Under the pieces are notes generated by a model. It searched no databases. It had not been told where the DNA came from and saw nothing but the letters and a program-made list of their open reading frames with translations. 64,000 bases of DNA from Fervidobacterium sp. (GTDB lineage Bacteria > Thermotogota > Thermotogae > Thermotogales > Fervidobacteriaceae): assembly GCA_026419195.1 (NCBI GenBank), contig JANZZV010000003.1:1-64000 (forward strand), in the 5' to 3' direction. Every line of letters starts with the position of its first letter. The first letter of the stretch is position 1. Positions 1,603 to 59,244 of the stretch are shown here, piece by piece. Made by a program: the position numbers and the translations under genes.

Positions 1603-1741
1603 GTCTTATTAATTAATTGCTGAAAATGTAAAAGGCCCTTTGATACAAAAGCTTTAAATTAAGAAGTTGTTTGGTGAGAAAGTTTTAGAATAATTTATGC
1701 TTCGATAATGTAAAGGCAGATAATAAGGAGGTATTTGCATT

Positions 1742-2692
1742 ATGAGACCTCGGAATATTGAGTTTGAAATTACTACAGCTTGTAATTATTCTTGTTTGCA
1801 TTGCTATTGTAATGCTGGAAAGAAATCGAAAGTTGAGTTGTCCACAGAGGAAATTTTTGAGGTAATAGATCAACTTGTTCAAGCTGAAGTTGAGATACTT
1901 GATGTTGTTGGTGGTGAACCTTTGCTAAGAAATGATCTATTAAAGATATTTTCGTATGCTAAATCTAAGGGTTTGAGTATGATTATGAACACAAATGCTT
2001 CTCTCGCAACAAAGGATTTGGTAAACAAGATAAAAGCTATTGTCCCTGATTTGCATGTTGGTGTTTCACTCGATGGACCTGTTTCCGAAGTGCATGATAA
2101 AATTAGAGGAAAAGGAACTTTCGAAAGCACTATGAAGGGACTTAAGAATTTTCTGGAAGCTGGATTTAATGTTACGGTACTTTTTGTGGTGAATAGGTTA
2201 AATTACAGTTATATTGATGACATGGTTCTATTAGCAAAAGATTTAGGAACAAGTTTGTATGTTGACAGATTTATTCCTGTTGGTCGTGGAATGATAAATA
2301 AGGAATTGTTACTTCCTACACGAGATATGATTGAGCATGTGGCAAATAGGCTTCAGATATTTTTGAAGCGTGAAAACAGTGTTGAGTTATATATTGAGGA
2401 AAATATATTCGGATTGGAAGAATGTACTGCTGGTAGAACACATGCATCAATTCTTGTAGATGGTAATGTGGTACCTTGTGGACATTTTAGGTATAATCCT
2501 GAATATTATGTTGGAAATGTTAATAAAGAACGTTTCATAGATATTTGGCGAAGAATGGAGGAATACAGAAGCAAATTAATACCGCAGAGTTGTTTATTGT
2601 GTGCTTTGAGGGGAAATATTTGTAGTGCTGGATGTTTGGCAGCAGCTAAGTTTTATAAAGCAGATATTGACAGCGTAATTTGTAAAAGATGA
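1742..2692 (+). CDS. Radical SAM/SPASM domain protein
   Basis: A 316-residue enzyme expected to cleave S-adenosylmethionine reductively with a [4Fe-4S] cluster. The cluster motif is C14-x3-C18-x2-C21 (CNYSCLHC), followed by VVGGEPL, the usual GGEP strand. The C-terminal third has the SPASM/twitch pattern: a Cys in ECTAGR, VPCGHF, then CLLC and NICSAGC, which would bind one or two auxiliary clusters. SPASM enzymes modify peptides or proteins, and others act on heme-like molecules; the substrate here is unknown, and no precursor peptide gene is visible nearby. A strong AAGGAGG lies 10 bases before the ATG. The gene stands alone between ssrA and the convergent por operon, so context gives no role. 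Confidence 0.85.
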   Translation: MRPRNIEFEITTACNYSCLHCYCNAGKKSKVELSTEEIFEVIDQLVQAEVEILDVVGGEPLLRNDLLKIFSYAKSKGLSMIMNTNASLATKDLVNKIKAIVPDLHVGVSLDGPVSEVHDKIRGKGTFESTMKGLKNFLEAGFNVTVLFVVNRLNYSYIDDMVLLAKDLGTSLYVDRFIPVGRGMINKELLLPTRDMIEHVANRLQIFLKRENSVELYIEENIFGLEECTAGRTHASILVDGNVVPCGHFRYNPEYYVGNVNKERFIDIWRRMEEYRSKLIPQSCLLCALRGNICSAGCLAAAKFYKADIDSVICKR

Positions 2693-2706
2693 CATGTTAA
2701 AAAACT

Positions 2707-2742
2707 GAAAAAGTCCCATGGCCAATACCATGGGACTTTTTT
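2707..2742. terminator. Bidirectional terminator between the radical SAM gene and porB
   Basis: Stem AAAAAGTCCCATGG/CCATGGGACTTTTT with a 6-base loop. A-runs and T-runs on either side allow it to stop both convergent transcripts. Confidence 0.85.
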
Positions 2743-2754
2743 CTAATGAATTCA

Positions 2755-3777
2755 TTACATTGCATGCTCATCAGTTTGTATATCTTTCTTCACTTGTCCT
2801 TTAACTCTTATTGGTTTGTCTTTTGTAGCTTCTTCAAGTGCAAGAAGTCGCTGATATCTTGTTGTAACGTATTCTTGAAGTTCGTCTATTATTTCTTGTG
2901 CGTCTGGTCTCGAAAGGAATAGTTTGAATCTTCCTTGTGATTTAATGTAATCAGCTACTGGTCGTGGATTTGTTATCTTCTTTGTTACTCTGTAAACACC
3001 TCTTTCGACTTCATACAAAGGCCAGTATAGTGTTTCGATTGCAAGCTTGCTTGTTTCAACAGCTTTATCATCGGAAACTCTCCAAAATCTTACACATGCT
3101 GAATGCGCAGCAATAAATGCTGGCCCATCGAATTCAAGGGCTTTTTCTATTTTTTTCATGAAGTCAATTGGCTCAGAAAGCGCAACCGTGGCAACGTAGA
3201 CATTTTCGTGAGCGGCCATTATTTCAACCATATTCTTTTTGAGTTGTAATTTCCCAGCGAGTTTTTTTCCAACCGGAGCTGTTGTTGTATCTGAACCAGG
3301 AGGTGTTGCGCCAGATCTTTGGTTACCAGTATTCATGTAACCTTCGTTGTCGTAGACAATGTATATAAATTTGTGCCCTCTTTCTACAGCACCAGAAAGT
3401 GATTGTAAACCAATGTCGTACGTTCCACCATCTCCCGCAAAAGCAAAGAATGCAAGTTTCTTATCTTCAGGAATTTCTCCTCTCTTCTTTGCTGCTCTAA
3501 ATGCTGTTTCCACACCACTGATTGTAGCTGCTACGTTTTCAAAAGCGTTGTGAATGTATGGTACATTCCATGCTGTATATGGGAATATTGTTGTGGATAC
3601 TTCAAGACACCCAGTTGCAAGAGCAACTACAGGTTCGTAACCATTTGCCATGGCAGTCATCAGTGCAAATTTTACAACATTCGGTGCTCCACAACCAGGA
3701 CACATTCTGTGACCCGGGGTTATTCCAGGGTTTTTGTCATAAAATAGCTTTGCAAGTTCTATAGCATTTAATGGCAT
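2755..3777 (-). CDS. porB: Pyruvate:ferredoxin oxidoreductase, beta subunit
   Basis: This 340-residue subunit binds thiamine diphosphate in the enzyme that oxidises pyruvate to acetyl-CoA and CO2 and reduces ferredoxin. HRMCPGCGAP near residue 23 supplies cluster-binding cysteines, and AFAGDGGTYDIG (residues about 112-123) with YDNEGYMNTGNQRSG downstream is the TPP-Mg motif. A further Cys, ACVRFW, is in the expected place near residue 228. Length is normal for the four-subunit class. It is the last gene of the porGDAB operon, 15 bases after porA, and ends at a bidirectional terminator. Confidence 0.95.
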   Translation of the reverse strand: MPLNAIELAKLFYDKNPGITPGHRMCPGCGAPNVVKFALMTAMANGYEPVVALATGCLEVSTTIFPYTAWNVPYIHNAFENVAATISGVETAFRAAKKRGEIPEDKKLAFFAFAGDGGTYDIGLQSLSGAVERGHKFIYIVYDNEGYMNTGNQRSGATPPGSDTTTAPVGKKLAGKLQLKKNMVEIMAAHENVYVATVALSEPIDFMKKIEKALEFDGPAFIAAHSACVRFWRVSDDKAVETSKLAIETLYWPLYEVERGVYRVTKKITNPRPVADYIKSQGRFKLFLSRPDAQEIIDELQEYVTTRYQRLLALEEATKDKPIRVKGQVKKDIQTDEHAM

Positions 3778-53083: not shown

Positions 53084-54007
53084 CTATTTAGTTTCAATAA
53101 AGAACTTTTCATCTGGAACTTTCGGCATACCCTCTGGATAAAGCTCATTAAGCCTTCTTAAATAATTAAGCACTTCCTCTTTGCAGTCCTTTGAAGATAC
53201 ATAGTTGTACTGACTTCTTGAGAGAGAGGTTTTCAACACATTAGTTGGAATACCTAATTGTTTACTCGTTATTTCAACAGCTTTATCTATGTTATTGTAA
53301 GACCAGTTTAGGCTTGCAATGAAAGATTTCTCAAAGAGCCTTACTGTATTTAAGTAATCCTGCAACTTTCCAGTCACAAATATTCCGGTTATAGGAATAC
53401 CATATTTGGTTCCACTGGCTTTGTTCCATTCGTCCTGTAAGTCAAGGATTATTTTTCCTTTTGACAGTGTCATCGTTACGAAAGGTTCGGGAATCGCCGC
53501 TAATCTTATCTTACCTGAGTTAAATAGTGATACTATTTCCTGAGGCTGTGCGTACGCAAATGTAACGTCTTTATCTGGTTCCAACCCGTTTTTGACAAGT
53601 AAATATCTCATCACAACATCGGCAGTTTGACCCCGTCCGTGAGCAGTGTATATCTTCTCACCCTTTAGGCTTTGATAATTTTTAAATTCAAAATCGGTTG
53701 AAGCAACGACATAAAATAATCGCCAACTGTATACACCAACAAGTCTTACGTCAATACCTTTTGTATACAAATTTGCAGCAAATGTTACTGGTAAAGCTGC
53801 AAAGTTCACTTTCTTAGATACAATATAGGCCGTAGCCTCATCGAGTGTCTTCCAAAACCTCATATCAAGTGCGATATCGGTTTTAACCTCTTTACCAATC
53901 AGCCCAGCTACAGGGAAGATCGTTGGACCAAAAGGATTGATAAAACTTACTGCATAGATCCAGATGGAAAGAAAAATCATAGCAAGTACGAAAAACTTTT
54001 TAGTCAT
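53084..54007 (-). CDS. ABC transporter substrate-binding protein (SsuA/NrtA/ThiY-like)
   Basis: A 307-residue exported protein. The signal peptide MTKKFFVLAMIFLSIWIYAVSF has no lipobox Cys. The mature part resembles NMT1/SsuA-type two-lobed binding proteins: AALPVTFAANLYTKGIDVRLVG and ENGLEPDKDV-like VKNGLEPDKDVTFAYAQ. Relatives bind sulfonates, nitrate or thiamine precursors; I cannot tell which. GAGGAGGTG lies upstream of the ATG, which overlaps the ATPase stop as ATGA. There is no TPP riboswitch upstream of the operon. Confidence 0.8.
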   Translation of the reverse strand: MTKKFFVLAMIFLSIWIYAVSFINPFGPTIFPVAGLIGKEVKTDIALDMRFWKTLDEATAYIVSKKVNFAALPVTFAANLYTKGIDVRLVGVYSWRLFYVVASTDFEFKNYQSLKGEKIYTAHGRGQTADVVMRYLLVKNGLEPDKDVTFAYAQPQEIVSLFNSGKIRLAAIPEPFVTMTLSKGKIILDLQDEWNKASGTKYGIPITGIFVTGKLQDYLNTVRLFEKSFIASLNWSYNNIDKAVEITSKQLGIPTNVLKTSLSRSQYNYVSSKDCKEEVLNYLRRLNELYPEGMPKVPDEKFFIETK

Positions 54008-54717
54008 ACACTCCACCTCCTCATAATTTCCGATAGTATAGCTGATTCCATTTTTTGAAATTCTTCAGATAGTGCATTCTTTGGTATGTGTTTTGTCTTA
54101 AATTCTCCAATTATTCTGCTTGGTTTATCACTAAGTAATATAATTCTATCTGCTAACAAGAGCGCTTCACGTATATCGTGAGTAACAAGGATCATCGAAA
54201 AATTTCCTATTTTTCTTTTTTCTATAATATCTTCTATTATTGAAAGCTTCATATGGACATCCAAAGAAGCAAAAGGTTCATCCAAAAACAAAACTTCTGG
54301 ATCTGAGATTAAAGCCCTTGCCAAGTTCACCCTTTGCTTCATACCGCCACTGAGCTTTGAAGGTAAGTAATGAGCAAAGTTTTCCAGACTAAATGTCTTG
54401 AGAATGGAAAGAGCCCTTTGTTCATCATTATAAACAAACAAAATATTTTCAAGTACATTTTTCCAAGGTATCAATCTTGGCTCTTGAAAAACATAACCTA
54501 TCTTTGAAAAGTATTTTTGTATATATCCATTGTAGTTTTTGTCAATCCCTGCTACGATTTTTAAGAGTGTTGTCTTTCCACAACCAGATGGACCAAGAAA
54601 CGCTACTGATTCGCCTTTAAGTAGCTCAAAAGATAAATTTTCTATAACTTTTAGTTTTCCAAAGAATTTTTCCAGATTTTTAACACTCAATATTACATCA
54701 TTCACACTAATTCCCAA
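54004..54717 (-). CDS. ABC transporter ATP-binding protein (SsuB-like)
   Basis: A 237-residue ATPase. Walker A is GPSGCGKTTLLK, the Q loop is in IGYVFQEPRLIPWKN, the signature is LSGGMKQR, Walker B is VLFLDEPFASLD, and the switch His is in LVTHDIREAL. The family is that of nitrate/sulfonate/taurine importers. It overlaps the permease gene by 16 bases. Confidence 0.93.
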   Translation of the reverse strand: MGISVNDVILSVKNLEKFFGKLKVIENLSFELLKGESVAFLGPSGCGKTTLLKIVAGIDKNYNGYIQKYFSKIGYVFQEPRLIPWKNVLENILFVYNDEQRALSILKTFSLENFAHYLPSKLSGGMKQRVNLARALISDPEVLFLDEPFASLDVHMKLSIIEDIIEKRKIGNFSMILVTHDIREALLLADRIILLSDKPSRIIGEFKTKHIPKNALSEEFQKMESAILSEIMRRWSV

Positions 54718-55448
54718 TTCTTAAGTAACCTCCTTACAAGCCTATGAACAATGCTTTCTACAATCAATCCTATAGTTATTATTACGATTGTGTAAGCATA
54801 AACTTTTTCGACAGAAACAGACTGCCTTGCCCAAGCTATCAGCACACCAATCCCTTTTTCCCCACACATATATTCTGCAACAACAACAACCTTCCACACA
54901 TTTCCAATGACAACCTGAAGTGTTGAAACAAATTGAGGGATTATTGAACCAAGATACACATCCTTCAAGATCCTACTTTTTCGTACATTGTAGACATGTG
55001 CCATCTCGATAAGTCTTTTGTCAGTTGTCTGGATACCAACTGCTGTTGATAAAATTGCGTGCGGAAGCAACGATAGAAAGCTAACAACAACAGGTCCAGT
55101 CCAACCAATACCCCAAATGAACATCACAAGCGCAAGCCAGGTTACTATTGGAAATGCTTGCATGAACAGTATAAAAGGTCGTGAGATCTCATAGAGAATA
55201 TCGTTCAGACCAACCAAGAAACCTAACACCACACCAACAAAAACTACAGAAAAAAGCACAACCAATACCTTTGACAATGTTTGTACCAAGTTCATCCAGA
55301 AAATTTGTTTAGTTATTTCATCTGCTATCGTCAAAAAAACACTCAAAGGATTGGGTAGTATCAACTGTGAATTGATAAGATATGATGCAATTGTCCAGAT
55401 GAAAAATATAAATAATATGCCGACAATATAATTAGCTTTTTCTACCAA
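54702..55448 (-). CDS. ABC transporter permease (SsuC-like)
   Basis: A 248-residue membrane protein with about six helices. The EAA-like loop is EMAHVYNVRKSRILKDVYLGSIIPQF. It belongs to the BPD-type permeases of sulfonate, taurine or thiamine-precursor systems. It starts at TTG, with AAAGGAG upstream, and is the first gene of the three-gene operon. Confidence 0.9.
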   Translation of the reverse strand: MVEKANYIVGILFIFFIWTIASYLINSQLILPNPLSVFLTIADEITKQIFWMNLVQTLSKVLVVLFSVVFVGVVLGFLVGLNDILYEISRPFILFMQAFPIVTWLALVMFIWGIGWTGPVVVSFLSLLPHAILSTAVGIQTTDKRLIEMAHVYNVRKSRILKDVYLGSIIPQFVSTLQVVIGNVWKVVVVAEYMCGEKGIGVLIAWARQSVSVEKVYAYTIVIITIGLIVESIVHRLVRRLLKNWELV

Positions 55449-55511: not shown

Positions 55512-55541
55512 TTGACATGGTATAAACAAATTTGATATAAT
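55512..55541 (+). promoter_or_regulatory. Promoter of the plus-strand TM1266-like gene
   Basis: A perfect TTGACA at 55512-55517, an 18-base spacer and a perfect TATAAT at 55536-55541. Confidence 0.75.
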
Positions 55542-55607
55542 ATTAAAGGTACAAGTTTCGGTTTCGTATTTACTTTTTATTGAATTCCATTAAAGGAGGT
55601 GTATCTC

Positions 55608-55877
55608 ATGGCAAGAGATATTACAGTGAGAACGGTTATGGCTGTCTTGGTTGACAAAAGAGAACAAGCCGCTGTTGAAGTACAAAAACTTTTAACAGAG
55701 TATGGTTGTTATATAAAAACAAGGCTTGGTCTTCATGAAGGTGCAGGTCAATATTGTTCGCCAGTTGGTTTAATTATACTAGAGCTTGTTGACGATGAAA
55801 CAAAGCATGATGAGCTTTGCCAAAAGTTAAACCAAATTGATGGTGTAACGGCCAAGTACATGAAACTTGAGCTGTGA
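55608..55877 (+). CDS. Small ACT-like protein, TM1266-related
   Basis: An 89-residue protein that looks like the iron-only hydrogenase system regulator family (TM1266/TIGR03959): VMAVLVDKREQAAVEVQKLL, then GCYIKTRLGLHE, LIILELV and a final IDGVTAKYMKLEL. The fold is predicted as a ferredoxin-like ACT or NikR C-terminal type. It differs from the canonical copy at 58788 by a longer central loop with the Cys of GQYCSP. AAAGGAGGTG precedes ATG at 55608. It is convergent to hydE, with its own promoter and terminator. Function is not established. Confidence 0.65.
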   Translation: MARDITVRTVMAVLVDKREQAAVEVQKLLTEYGCYIKTRLGLHEGAGQYCSPVGLIILELVDDETKHDELCQKLNQIDGVTAKYMKLEL

Positions 55878-55923: not shown

Positions 55924-55956
55924 TGGTCAGCGGTACGCTGACCACTTATTTTTATT
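55924..55956. terminator. Terminator between the TM1266-like gene and hydE
   Basis: Stem TGGTCAGCG/CGCTGACCA with a 3-base loop, then CTTATTTTTATT on the plus strand. Confidence 0.85.
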
Positions 55957-56986
55957 ATACCATATTGGAAATGTATCCAGATTTTCGATAGCCGTAACCT
56001 TCCCCTACTTTTAAACCTAAACCTTTTATCATTGTCCTTGTGCACTCAACACACGCAGTGTCTTTTTCAAACAAACATATTTTTCCCGGGTAAAGTGAAT
56101 AATTGGGTCTGTAAGGATTCGGTGTTAAATTCGGCATTATTACATTGGCGCCGTATTTCAAACCGAGCTGCCTTCCAAATGGATTTATAGAACCAAGTGC
56201 TGTTGTGGCAGGTATATTAGCAGTTGGTATTATTATCCTTGCAAGTGCAATCATCTTAAGTGTTGTATACAAATCACCGCCACCTTGATTTGCTAAGGGT
56301 GTATCGGGATTAGGTATAAACGGTCCTATACCTATCATATCTGCATCAAGTTCTTTTAAAAAAGCAAGATCGAGCGCCAGATCGTAATATGTCTGACCAG
56401 GAAGACCAACCATACAGCCTGCACCAGTTTCGTAACCAAGGCGTTTCAATTCAAAAAGATGTGCTTTTCTGCTTTCAAATGAATCACCAGGGTGCAGCTT
56501 AGCATAAAGTGATTTAGAAGCCGTTTCATGACGCATTAGATATCTATCAGCTCCAAATTCTTTCCAGATTCTATACTCTTCAAAAGTACGTTCTCCTATA
56601 CTCAAAGTTATTGCAACGTCCAATTTCTTTATTTCGGTTATCAAAGTATTTATCATTTCTGTTGTGTAATACGGATCTTCCCCTGATTGAAGGACAATAG
56701 TTTTAATACCAAGCCTTGCAATAAGTTTTGCCCTTTCTATAATTTCCTCCAGGCTCATCCGGTAACGAACAAGATTCTTATTCTCTGATCTAAGACCACA
56801 GTACAGACAACGTTGAGAACAATAATTAGAAAATTCAATAATAGCTCTTAAGTGGACTTCTTCACCAACATATTTTTTTCTTATCTCGTCAGCTTTCTGA
56901 AATATTTCTTCGTTGTGTTTATTTGTACTAAGCAGATAGGTAATATAGTCTAAATTCACGCTTTGAATTTTTTCAAGCTCTATCAT
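55955..56986 (-). CDS. hydE: [FeFe]-hydrogenase maturase HydE
   Basis: A 343-residue radical SAM enzyme for building the H-cluster 2Fe subsite. The cluster motif is NYCSQRCLYCGLR, followed by VLQSGEDPYY and MVGLPGQTYYDLALDL. The C-terminal segment LGLKYGANVIMPNLTPN is typical. Cysteines near the C terminus (KDTACVECTR) may bind a second cluster. It is the last gene of the TM1266-hydG-unknown-hydE set. hydF and the hydrogenase structural genes are not in the window. Confidence 0.94.
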   Translation of the reverse strand: MIELEKIQSVNLDYITYLLSTNKHNEEIFQKADEIRKKYVGEEVHLRAIIEFSNYCSQRCLYCGLRSENKNLVRYRMSLEEIIERAKLIARLGIKTIVLQSGEDPYYTTEMINTLITEIKKLDVAITLSIGERTFEEYRIWKEFGADRYLMRHETASKSLYAKLHPGDSFESRKAHLFELKRLGYETGAGCMVGLPGQTYYDLALDLAFLKELDADMIGIGPFIPNPDTPLANQGGGDLYTTLKMIALARIIIPTANIPATTALGSINPFGRQLGLKYGANVIMPNLTPNPYRPNYSLYPGKICLFEKDTACVECTRTMIKGLGLKVGEGYGYRKSGYISNMV

Positions 56987-57000
56987 ACAACCACCTCAGG

Positions 57001-57249
57001 TTATTTTTTTAAGTAGTAAGTAATGAAGTTAGAAATCTCTGTCAGTACTTCGGAACCTTTTAATTCCTTTTGTGAAAAAACAACATATTTATCATCCTCG
57101 TAAACTATAAAGCCTTCTGTGTAACTTTCTTGTCCAGCTCTTGCTATACAAGATAATCTCTTACCTATTTTTTCACAGATCCAAACTTTTGTGTTGAATC
57201 TTTCGGCAATCGGGGAGAGTAATTTACTGAGTTTTTCAAAATCTGACAT
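57001..57249 (-). CDS. Unknown small protein between hydG and hydE (TM1268 position)
   Basis: An 82-residue protein I do not recognise by domain. It reads VWICEKIGKRLSCIARAG in the middle and FIVYEDDKYVVFSQ, suggesting a small alpha/beta or GAF-like half domain. Two Cys are present. It overlaps the hydG stop by 14 bases and ends 14 bases before hydE, so it is translated with them. Thermotoga has a gene in the same place. ATG at 57249 has GGTGAG upstream. Confidence 0.65.
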   Translation of the reverse strand: MSDFEKLSKLLSPIAERFNTKVWICEKIGKRLSCIARAGQESYTEGFIVYEDDKYVVFSQKELKGSEVLTEISNFITYYLKK

Positions 57250-58645
57250 CGCGCTCACCACGTTCAATTCTTTCAAGGTACTTAATCACGAGTTCTTTAT
57301 TGTTAATCTTTTCGATTTCTTCTTGGATTAGCTTGTTACCAAGTGTTTTCGTTTGCTCTGAAGCATAGTCATTTAAGTATTCTTTTAGCGTAAATAGTGC
57401 ATTCGGAGTACAGAACCTTTTAACAAAACCAGGAATAGCAAATTCCATAAAGTGTTCACCCGTTCGTCCCATTCTGTAGCAAGCAGTACAGAATGATGGT
57501 ATATAACCTTCTTGGAGTAAATCATATATAACTTCTTCAAGCGACCGATTATCCCCGAGTATAAATTGACTTTTTCTGATCTTTTCTGGATCACTTTGTG
57601 AATAAGAGCCTATACCTATACTCGAACCACCATCTATTTGTGAAACTCCCATCTTAAGTACTTCTTTTCTAAGATGCGCTGGTTCTCGTGCTGTGAGGAT
57701 CATACCAGTGTACGGTACAGCCAGTCTTATTATTGCAACTAATTTCTTGAAATCATCATCACTGACCTTAGCTGGTGGATTATAACTTAATTCACTACCA
57801 AGTGCTGGTTCAATCCTCGGGAACGATATCGTGTGGGGGCCCACACCAAATCGCTCTTCTAAATGAATTGTATGATAAATTAGTCCCATGACCTCATATT
57901 TCCAATTATATAAACCGAAGAGTGCGCCTATACCAACATCGTCTATACCAGCAAGCATCGCTCTGTCAAGACCGTATAACCGCCAAGCATAATTTGACTT
58001 TGGTCCTCTTGGGTGTAATTTTTTATACGTTGGTTGATGGTAAGTTTCTTGGAAAATTTGAAACGTTCCGATACCAGCTTCCTTTATGATCTTGTAACCT
58101 TCCACTGTTTGTGGAGCAGCATTCACATTTACTCTTCTTATCTCACCATTTCCAACTTTTGTATCGTAAATTATTCTTATAGTTTCCGCAATAAACTCCG
58201 GACTATATCTTGGATGTTCACCATAGACAACTATCAAACGTTTGTGTCCTTTCGACACAAGTGCTTCTACTTCTCTTCTTAGTTCTTCAAATGTTAGTGT
58301 CTTTCTATAAACTTCTGAGTTTGAATTTCTGAAACCACAGTATACACAGTCGTTAACACAATCGTTCCCTATGTAAAGTGGTGCAAAAAGTACTATCCTG
58401 TTACCGTATATCCTCTCTTTCAACGTTCTTGCCGCATGAAAAATCTCTTCAAGTAGCTTTTCGTCTTCAACATTAAGAAGTGTCGCAACTTCATCGGGTT
58501 CCAGCCTATTTTTGTTGAGAGACTTTTCAAGAATTTCCCTGACTTTCACTTTATCAGGCGATTTCGTAACTTCGAGTAACTCAAATATCTCTGCCTCTGG
58601 AATAAATGTTTTTTCATTGTCTATTTCTTTTGTGAACACATACAT
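57236..58645 (-). CDS. hydG: [FeFe]-hydrogenase maturase HydG
   Basis: A 469-residue radical SAM tyrosine lyase that makes the CO and CN ligands of the H-cluster. The SAM cluster motif is CVNDCVYCGFRNSN. The C-terminal cluster site is CTACYRMGR with a third Cys in VKRFCTPNA, as in HydG and unlike ThiH. ATG at 58645 follows GAAGGAGG by 7 bases. It is followed by the small unknown gene and hydE. A 142-base gap with no clear hairpin separates it from the TM1266-type gene. Confidence 0.95.
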   Translation of the reverse strand: MYVFTKEIDNEKTFIPEAEIFELLEVTKSPDKVKVREILEKSLNKNRLEPDEVATLLNVEDEKLLEEIFHAARTLKERIYGNRIVLFAPLYIGNDCVNDCVYCGFRNSNSEVYRKTLTFEELRREVEALVSKGHKRLIVVYGEHPRYSPEFIAETIRIIYDTKVGNGEIRRVNVNAAPQTVEGYKIIKEAGIGTFQIFQETYHQPTYKKLHPRGPKSNYAWRLYGLDRAMLAGIDDVGIGALFGLYNWKYEVMGLIYHTIHLEERFGVGPHTISFPRIEPALGSELSYNPPAKVSDDDFKKLVAIIRLAVPYTGMILTAREPAHLRKEVLKMGVSQIDGGSSIGIGSYSQSDPEKIRKSQFILGDNRSLEEVIYDLLQEGYIPSFCTACYRMGRTGEHFMEFAIPGFVKRFCTPNALFTLKEYLNDYASEQTKTLGNKLIQEEIEKINNKELVIKYLERIERGERDVRF

Positions 58646-58787
58646 AAAAATACCTCCTTCATTTAATAAAATCATGTCTGTAGATTAGATAAGATAAAAG
58701 AGCCTTTAATAATTATTAATTTCAGTTCATTGATCGAGTTAAAATCTTTATCAAGCAAAGAAACAAAAATATAACAAACATCTTTGA

Positions 58788-59033
58788 TCAATTCACCGCT
58801 ATACTTTTAACTTTTACTCCTTTTATATTTCCAAGTTTTCCCGTGAATGAACCAATAATATCATTCGTCGCTTTTACTATTAAAAAAACAATCGCTATAT
58901 TTTCATCTGGAACTGGATATCCAACCCTCAATCTAATAATCTCCGAATACTGATGTAATAATTCATTGACCTTTGAATACGCATTTTCCCTGTCGGTAAC
59001 TATGATATCGATGGTGTAGTACCTTTCTCCCAC
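58788..59033 (-). CDS. TM1266-type putative hydrogenase system regulator
   Basis: An 81-residue ACT-like protein of the TIGR03959 family found beside HydE and HydG genes: YTIDIIVTDRENAYSKVNELL, IIRLRVGYP, IAIVFLIVKA and GVKVKSIAVN. The start is GTG, with GGAGGG 6 bases before it. It is the first gene after the leader with alternative hairpins (59060-59154), so it might sense a metabolite and act on its own operon, which is inference. Confidence 0.85.
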   Translation of the reverse strand: MGERYYTIDIIVTDRENAYSKVNELLHQYSEIIRLRVGYPVPDENIAIVFLIVKATNDIIGSFTGKLGNIKGVKVKSIAVN

Positions 59034-59058: not shown

Positions 59059-59136
59059 TCAAAAAATTAAATCCCCTTCCCTTGTGTACCAAGGAAAGGG
59101 GATAATTTTAGAAAGAAAACAAAAATTCGCACTCAA
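59059..59136 (-). CDS. Possible 25-codon leader peptide in the attenuator
   Basis: A TTG-started frame preceded by AAGGAAAGGGGAG, which lies within segment A of the leader. It reads through B and C and ends with TGA just at the end of the T-run. It includes one Cys, one Trp and one Tyr. The support is position only, and the frame may be chance. Confidence 0.2.
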   Translation of the reverse strand: MSANFCFLSKIIPFPWYTREGDLIF

Positions 59137-59154
59137 CTCTCCCCTTTCCTTGGT
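59060..59154 (-). promoter_or_regulatory. Attenuator-like leader of the hydrogenase maturation operon
   Basis: In minus-strand order, segment A is ACCAAGGAAAGGGGA (59154-59140). After 37 bases comes segment B, TCCCCTTTCCTTGGT (59102-59088), a perfect 15-bp complement of A. Segment C, CAAGGGAAGGGG (59084-59073), pairs with B over 12 bp (one G-U) and is followed by ATTTAATTTTTTG (59072-59060). B:C is thus a terminator and A:B excludes it. The distance to the GTG start is 26 bases. The signal is unknown: no T-box, TPP or cobalamin core is visible. Confidence 0.7.
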
Positions 59155-59195
59155 GTCAGAAATGATTCCTCCACCTCAGAAAGATGTGTAATCCG

Positions 59196-59244
59196 ATTAT
59201 ATGAGAAAATATTCACATGCTTTCGTATCTATTTTACTACGAAA
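59196..59244 (-). promoter_or_regulatory. Promoter and operator-like dyad of the hydrogenase maturation operon
   Basis: The minus strand has a perfect TATAAT (59196-59201) but a poor -35 (GAAAGC, 59219-59224). A dyad TTTCGTA-N10-TACGAAA (59221-59244) covers the -35 position, which suggests a bound activator or repressor. The leader from about 59189 to the GTG is about 155 bases. Confidence 0.5.

Follow-up and report, generated by a model that had tools for sequence, protein, structure and literature searches.

Our analysis indicated that in this heat-loving bacterium expression of the [FeFe]-hydrogenase maturation genes is very likely turned off by a cis-acting RNA switch in their leader, a conclusion for which the literature searched offered no binding, structure-probing or transcript data. 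The window, i.e., the whole stretch of 64,000 nucleotides that was analysed, carries this leader on its minus strand, before a TM1266-type gene, hydG and hydE (Table 1). On direct reading of the window leader, segment A was complementary to segment B at 15 of 15 positions, and A was also most of the 3' strand (P2' and P1') of a conserved structured element of about 40 nt. The leader folded with a z-score of -4.1, which none of 200 shuffles equalled, and none of 300 shuffles of A matched its A:B score. Sequence features expected of a transcription attenuator were present: the A:B and B:C helices were mutually exclusive, the terminator was followed by a U run, and both helices were conserved and covarying in relatives.

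The sequence-only reading had described A and B as complementary, B and C as a hairpin, and the run behind them as T-rich, and this layout held when confirmed from the sequence. The coordinates given for it, 59059-59154, were right for A, B and C and left out the conserved element starting at 59183. Terminator/antiterminator control before the maturation genes, also claimed, found strong support in relatives, in conservation and covariation as well as in energetics; a lack of conservation or covariation of A, B and C had been named as grounds for refutation, and both were looked for and were present. The interpretation was incomplete in that it missed the upstream element (59183-59144), which overlaps A and governs the switch. 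It also covered one leader only, and the same element was found at hydF, hydA and hydG, including in leaders that sequester the Shine-Dalgarno sequence.

Table 1. Positions of the leader features, genes and neighbouring features in the window, and of the second element copy in the same genome.
Feature	Position	Strand	Remarks
Probable -10 box TAAAAT	59231-59236	minus	sequence inspection, no transcript data
Rex-like palindrome ATGTGAATATTTTCTCAT	59218-59201	minus	between -10 box and element; sequence inspection
Conserved structured element P1-P2-P3	59183-59144	minus	upstream of A, 3' strand overlapping A
Element P1	59183-59178 with 59149-59144	minus
Element tandem non-Watson-Crick G.A/A.A	59177-59176 with 59151-59150	minus
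Element P2	59175-59172 with 59155-59152	minus	GGUG with CACC
Element tandem G.A/A.G	59171-59170 with 59157-59156	minus
Element P3	59169-59166 with 59161-59158	minus	loop UCAU
Segment A, ACCAAGGAAAGGGGA	59154-59140	minus	antiterminator 5' strand
Segment B, TCCCCTTTCCTTGGT	59102-59088	minus	pairs with A (antiterminator) or C (terminator)
Terminator hairpin, ATCCCCTTTCCTTG-GTACA-CAAGGGAAGGGGAT	59103-59071	minus	14 pairs
Segment C	59071-59084	minus	3' arm of terminator hairpin
T-rich run TTAATTTTTT	59070-59061	minus	directly 3' of terminator hairpin
TM1266-type ACT-fold protein	58788-59033	minus	81 aa; TIGR03959, 107.4 bits against a cut-off of 60.8
hydG	57236-58675	minus	TIGR03955, 543 bits
91-aa ORF between hydG and hydE	57001-57276	minus	no NCBIfam family
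hydE, H-cluster radical SAM maturase	55955-56986	minus	TIGR03956, 362.8 bits
CPF_0552-family gene	55599-55877	plus	TM1266 relative, divergent from hydE
Sigma-70-type promoter of CPF_0552-family gene	55512-55541		12/12 match
NMT1/SsuA-type ABC transporter (substrate-binding protein, ATPase, permease)	53084-55448	minus	adjoins hydE
hydF copy of the element (L002)	1641-3070		same genome as the window

The conserved fold of the element, in which P1, P2 and P3 are set apart by two 2x2 internal loops, shared its helices with the minimum-energy fold computed for the window leader. Both sides had changed in 7 of 14 pairs across the first 22 element sequences (0 of 500 shuffles), and 69 distinct sequences held 133 double-sided changes against 44.5 expected, with 96.4% of cells pairing. 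P2 varied across relatives as GGUG/CACC, GAUG/CAUC, GGUU/GACC, GGCU/GGCC and GAUC/GAUC. Around this covarying 4-bp helix, which is flanked on either side by the tandem G.A loops, the letters C-U-G-A before and R-A-G-G after were fixed on both strands. The frequencies of the fixed letters were nearly equal on the two strands, and the core is therefore pseudo-two-fold symmetric (5'-CUGA-N4-RAGG).

In aligned full leaders from 37 relatives, 93.8% of A:B cells were paired, and double-sided changes numbered 47 where 15 were expected (0 of 500 shuffles). In the consensus register of the same leaders, B:C was 88.4% paired with 51 double-sided changes; this register lies one column off (+1) from that read in the window sequence, and counting in the window's own register gave little excess. 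When 58 terminator-type leaders were cut just before C, A:B was in the computed fold of 57, while the computed folds of the complete leaders (n = 58) had the terminator in 51 cases and the element in 52. For 50 of these leaders the fixed element structure gave a usable energy, and in every one of them A:B was the more stable of the two; the other eight were uninformative on this point. As A:B forms before C is present, yet the full leader mostly adopts element and terminator, the outcome is predicted to be set while B is being made.

Family f5 of the Thermotogota showed no clear A:B pairing; there the 3' strand of the element was the Shine-Dalgarno sequence, e.g., CATCGAGGAGGTGAGAAAAGAATG in L088, and in some f5 leaders (L095, L098, L099) a short frame and a terminator followed it. 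Several Clostridia leaders (L212, L216, L217, L222, L223, L226, L232) resembled this form. With its 3' strand serving as the Shine-Dalgarno sequence, a folded element would therefore hide the ribosome site. The two platforms, terminator and Shine-Dalgarno, agree in the model's prediction that the folded element means OFF, for which no transcript was measured.

A search with the leader in the genome that the window comes from returned a second copy, in which the conserved part was that upstream of the terminator. This copy (L002) sits directly before a gene which we take to be hydF, a GTPase starting MLPSGGFRKYISIVGRRNVGKSSF, from its sequence and knowledge of HydF without a family search. In L002, an aspartate ammonia-lyase-like (aspA-like) gene follows hydF from 2854 and is open at the locus end. 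A covariance model trained on 22 element copies and searched against 103 Thermotogota genomes detected the element in 62, and closer inspection added two (G049 and G084), giving 64. hydG was present in 70 of the 103 genomes; the element was found in 64 of these 70 and in none of the 33 without hydG. One genome (G048) carried TM1266 and hydG, with the element undetected. Directly downstream of the element, most Thermotogota had TM1266-hydG-hydE. Other leaders preceded hydF (L002, L065-L073, L100, L102), hydG directly (L092, L097, L101), hydE as the first gene (L091) or a gene taken to be hydA from its TSCCPGW and MPCTAKKDE motifs, without a family search (L012, L023, L024), and a gene for an NMT1-type substrate-binding protein followed once (L103).

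Among sampled Clostridia, 120 of 196 genomes carried TM1266. The Thermotogota model, run against 291 genomes, gave only four matches at E <= 0.01, three of which followed TM1266 by 16-40 nt and preceded hydG. Of 69 Clostridia TM1266 leaders, 12 satisfied a strict motif descriptor, where shuffles gave a mean of 0.05. A genome-wide search with a Clostridia model yielded 46 matches in genomes with known TM1266/hydG coordinates, 38 of which lay within 2 kb of either gene. Of two further matches, one was before hydF (L222, identified by BLAST) and one before a gene we take from its sequence (MRKEHDLLGELDVPADAYYG...GSSIMPGKINP) to be aspA (L228); aspartate ammonia-lyase supplies nitrogen for the H-cluster bridge in vitro (PMC11736057). 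Matches L227 and L230 fell in what we take to be gyrA coding sequence, the match G273:C1:7326 possibly does so as well, and no explanation was found for those in G174, G238 and G246. Alignment A5 of the Clostridia copies was partly selected by P2 complementarity, which biases its covariation, and the genome-wide search provides the independent test. We concluded that the form at Clostridia hyd genes is a diverged version of the Thermotogota element.

The model search found tandem double copies in four Clostridia genomes. In L131, L182 and L186, the element lay between TM1266 and the next gene and was followed by a motif-like stretch, CCTGACGAGATGG...ATCGAAGG, so tandem copies may exceed this count. 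A second Clostridia variant (L138, L153, L161, L172, L188, L193), in which P2 spacing is longer and P3 is a fixed GGG...CCC, was missed by the models.

Sequence comparison places the element at the start of the leader, with its 3' strand, A, able to pair with B instead. In the mechanism proposed from computed folds, pairing of A with B would block the terminator (ON), whereas an element that keeps A would allow B:C to form, and transcription should stop (OFF). A trans-acting partner is inferred to bind the symmetric element and lock the folded form. We propose as this partner the TM1266-type ACT-fold protein, which is encoded by the very operon in the window and would probably sense a metabolite or the maturation state first; the maturases and TM1266, and elsewhere the hydrogenase, would then be shut down together. 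In the absence of binding data, we favour the whole chain, with TM1266 as partner, by a narrow margin only.

Among hydG-positive Thermotogota, the element was present in 64 of 65 genomes with TM1266 and in none of five without it. The five TM1266-less genomes (L111-L115, G094-G098) belong to a single genus and kept hydG while both element and TM1266 were absent; the contrast thus rests on one genus and likely reflects a single co-loss. Another genome of that genus (G099) keeps both, and the comparison of G094-G098 with G099 amounts to a natural co-loss experiment. In Clostridia, the element was found in 30 of 101 genomes with TM1266 against 1 of 26 without (p = 0.003), an association that weakened to p = 0.034 once genomes used for training were left out. 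One Clostridia genome, G298, has the element before hydG and no TM1266 that we could find, in a genome of unknown completeness. TM1266 was also kept, though unlinked to the element, in G056, G058, G061-G063, G069 and G070.

R36 is invariant among TM1266 proteins, and K66 and K76 are conserved; at about 80 residues these proteins have no room for a separate DNA-binding domain. The ACT fold often forms dimers or tetramers. A symmetric RNA site, a small ACT-fold protein and a gene placed first in its own operon make a plausible pair, as with PyrR; TM1266 is not known to bind RNA. Of the three controllers that the sequence-only reading had offered, the TM1266-type protein was the best fit, a metabolite (tyrosine, SAM) remains possible, and translation of a leader frame fails for terminator-type leaders. 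A bolder reading, which without binding data could as easily prove wrong as right, is that the TM1266-type proteins form a new family that binds RNA and acts by attenuation. In this reading, an ACT-fold oligomer would recognise an RNA duplex of pseudo-two-fold symmetry, with CUGA-N4-RAGG on each strand. In both Thermotogota and Clostridia it would coordinate [FeFe]-hydrogenase, its three maturases, an ammonia supply (aspA) and an ABC transporter.

The main rival to the TM1266 model is a directly sensed metabolite. The element would then be the aptamer of a true riboswitch, binding a small molecule of H-cluster biosynthesis (such as SAM, tyrosine, cysteine or a pathway intermediate) and turning the genes off, with TM1266 merely a member of the regulon. 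A conserved, covarying aptamer-like domain does overlap the expression platform, as a riboswitch requires, and much else is usual for riboswitches: the conserved core is small while the helices vary, the platform can be either a terminator or a Shine-Dalgarno sequence, several Clostridia carry tandem copies, and use is regulon-wide, with aspA and an ABC transporter gene included. The Clostridia genome with the element and no detected TM1266 also speaks for it. Against it stand the near-perfect co-occurrence of element and TM1266, including their co-loss within one genus, a small and nearly symmetric core with conservation confined to the tandem G.A loops and their flanks, and the absence of Rfam riboswitch matches; on balance we lean against this explanation. 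It is unlikely that another trans-acting factor (an RNA-binding, Fe-S or redox-sensitive protein) binds the element while TM1266 acts elsewhere in maturation. That RNA binding by TM1266 has not been demonstrated, and that in L119 and L121 its gene lies together with an ABC transporter operon, as would fit other roles, would allow for such a factor. However, we saw no further small gene whose presence followed that of the element, in a comparison that was not systematic for other proteins, and in both phyla TM1266 adjoins the element in most genomes.

Attenuation by ribosomes that translate a leader peptide, known from amino-acid operons, could draw on a 13-codon GTG frame that crosses the element in the window and on the short frames of some f5 leaders, but conservation fell on base pairs rather than codons. 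Because the lengths of the P3 loop and spacer vary among relatives by non-multiples of three, no frame is conserved. This explanation was rejected for terminator-type leaders, in which the spacing from element to terminator varies freely, and it is all but ruled out overall. All but ruled out to the same degree is a reading of the conserved block as a DNA operator (of Rex, for instance), with a terminator hairpin that is constitutive or irrelevant. A Rex-like palindrome does lie upstream (59218-59201), but it is separate from the element. The element covaries in the manner of an RNA, U.G pairs included, and shares sequence with antiterminator or Shine-Dalgarno strands; a DNA operator was rejected for the element itself.

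The comparison with Rfam that the sequence-only reading had called for was run, and none of 4227 Rfam 15 families scored above its gathering score in the whole window, in the leader at a lax threshold or in 20 related loci. A sub-threshold match to the PyrR element (RF00515) was judged to be chance (28.7 bits, where the gathering score is 54). The PyrR-controlled pyr attenuator is similar in its layout of anti-antiterminator, antiterminator and terminator, in a binding protein encoded first in the controlled operon and in binding that means OFF; it differs in sequence, structure and genes. PyrR is unrelated to TM1266. Metabolite-sensing OFF riboswitches likewise place a covarying element before pathway genes, with several platforms, tandem copies and feedback-like logic, whereas the hyd element has no known ligand or Rfam riboswitch match, co-occurs tightly with one protein family and has a pseudo-two-fold duplex core. 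The window protein is a clear member of the TM1266 family (TIGR03959), with a solved homologue (2NZC). In annotation and in the literature searched, members of that family appear only as putative regulators, without a described RNA target. The claim that no attenuator had been described here also held, as the literature searched contained no description of RNA control at hyd maturation genes; an earlier name outside Rfam is not excluded. We concluded that the element is a new, previously uncatalogued class of a known kind, an attenuator or riboswitch-like RNA, present in many Thermotogota and Clostridia.

No mechanism for matching H-cluster assembly to need after initiation was described in the literature searched. 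An RNA switch at the maturase genes would offer a concrete, testable control point in major groups of fermentative hydrogen producers, and could serve to tune hydrogen production. The orphan TM1266 family would gain a likely function, for which there are no binding data, and two candidate new members of the H-cluster pathway can be named: the ABC transporter and the 91-aa protein. Other Thermotogota carry relatives of the 91-aa ORF at the corresponding position (L075, L085, L090, L095, L101, L108). In the window, the NMT1/SsuA-type ABC transporter is associated with the hyd genes, and its control by the switch was not shown. The same ABC genes followed TM1266 in L119 and L121, and a similar substrate-binding gene followed the element in L103; the transporter is likely an unrecognised partner of H-cluster maturation. 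A CO2 gene-change table for T. neapolitana lists 5.98 for the TM1266-type gene, 6.39 for hydG, 7.52 for hydE and only 1.28 for hydF (PMC7039931; scale unchecked).

Transcription in the window was inferred from sequence alone, without transcript data, to start near 59224, giving a leader of about 190 nt. In relatives of the f2 family, a TATAAT lay close upstream and the RNA would begin right at the element. Rex control of hydG was reported in Caldicellulosiruptor (PMC6391272). Motifs of the form TGTGAAT...TTC, similar to the Rex-like palindrome of the window, were found upstream of the element in relatives, and the palindrome itself, judged only by its sequence, suggested that NADH-linked control of initiation may act on top of attenuation.
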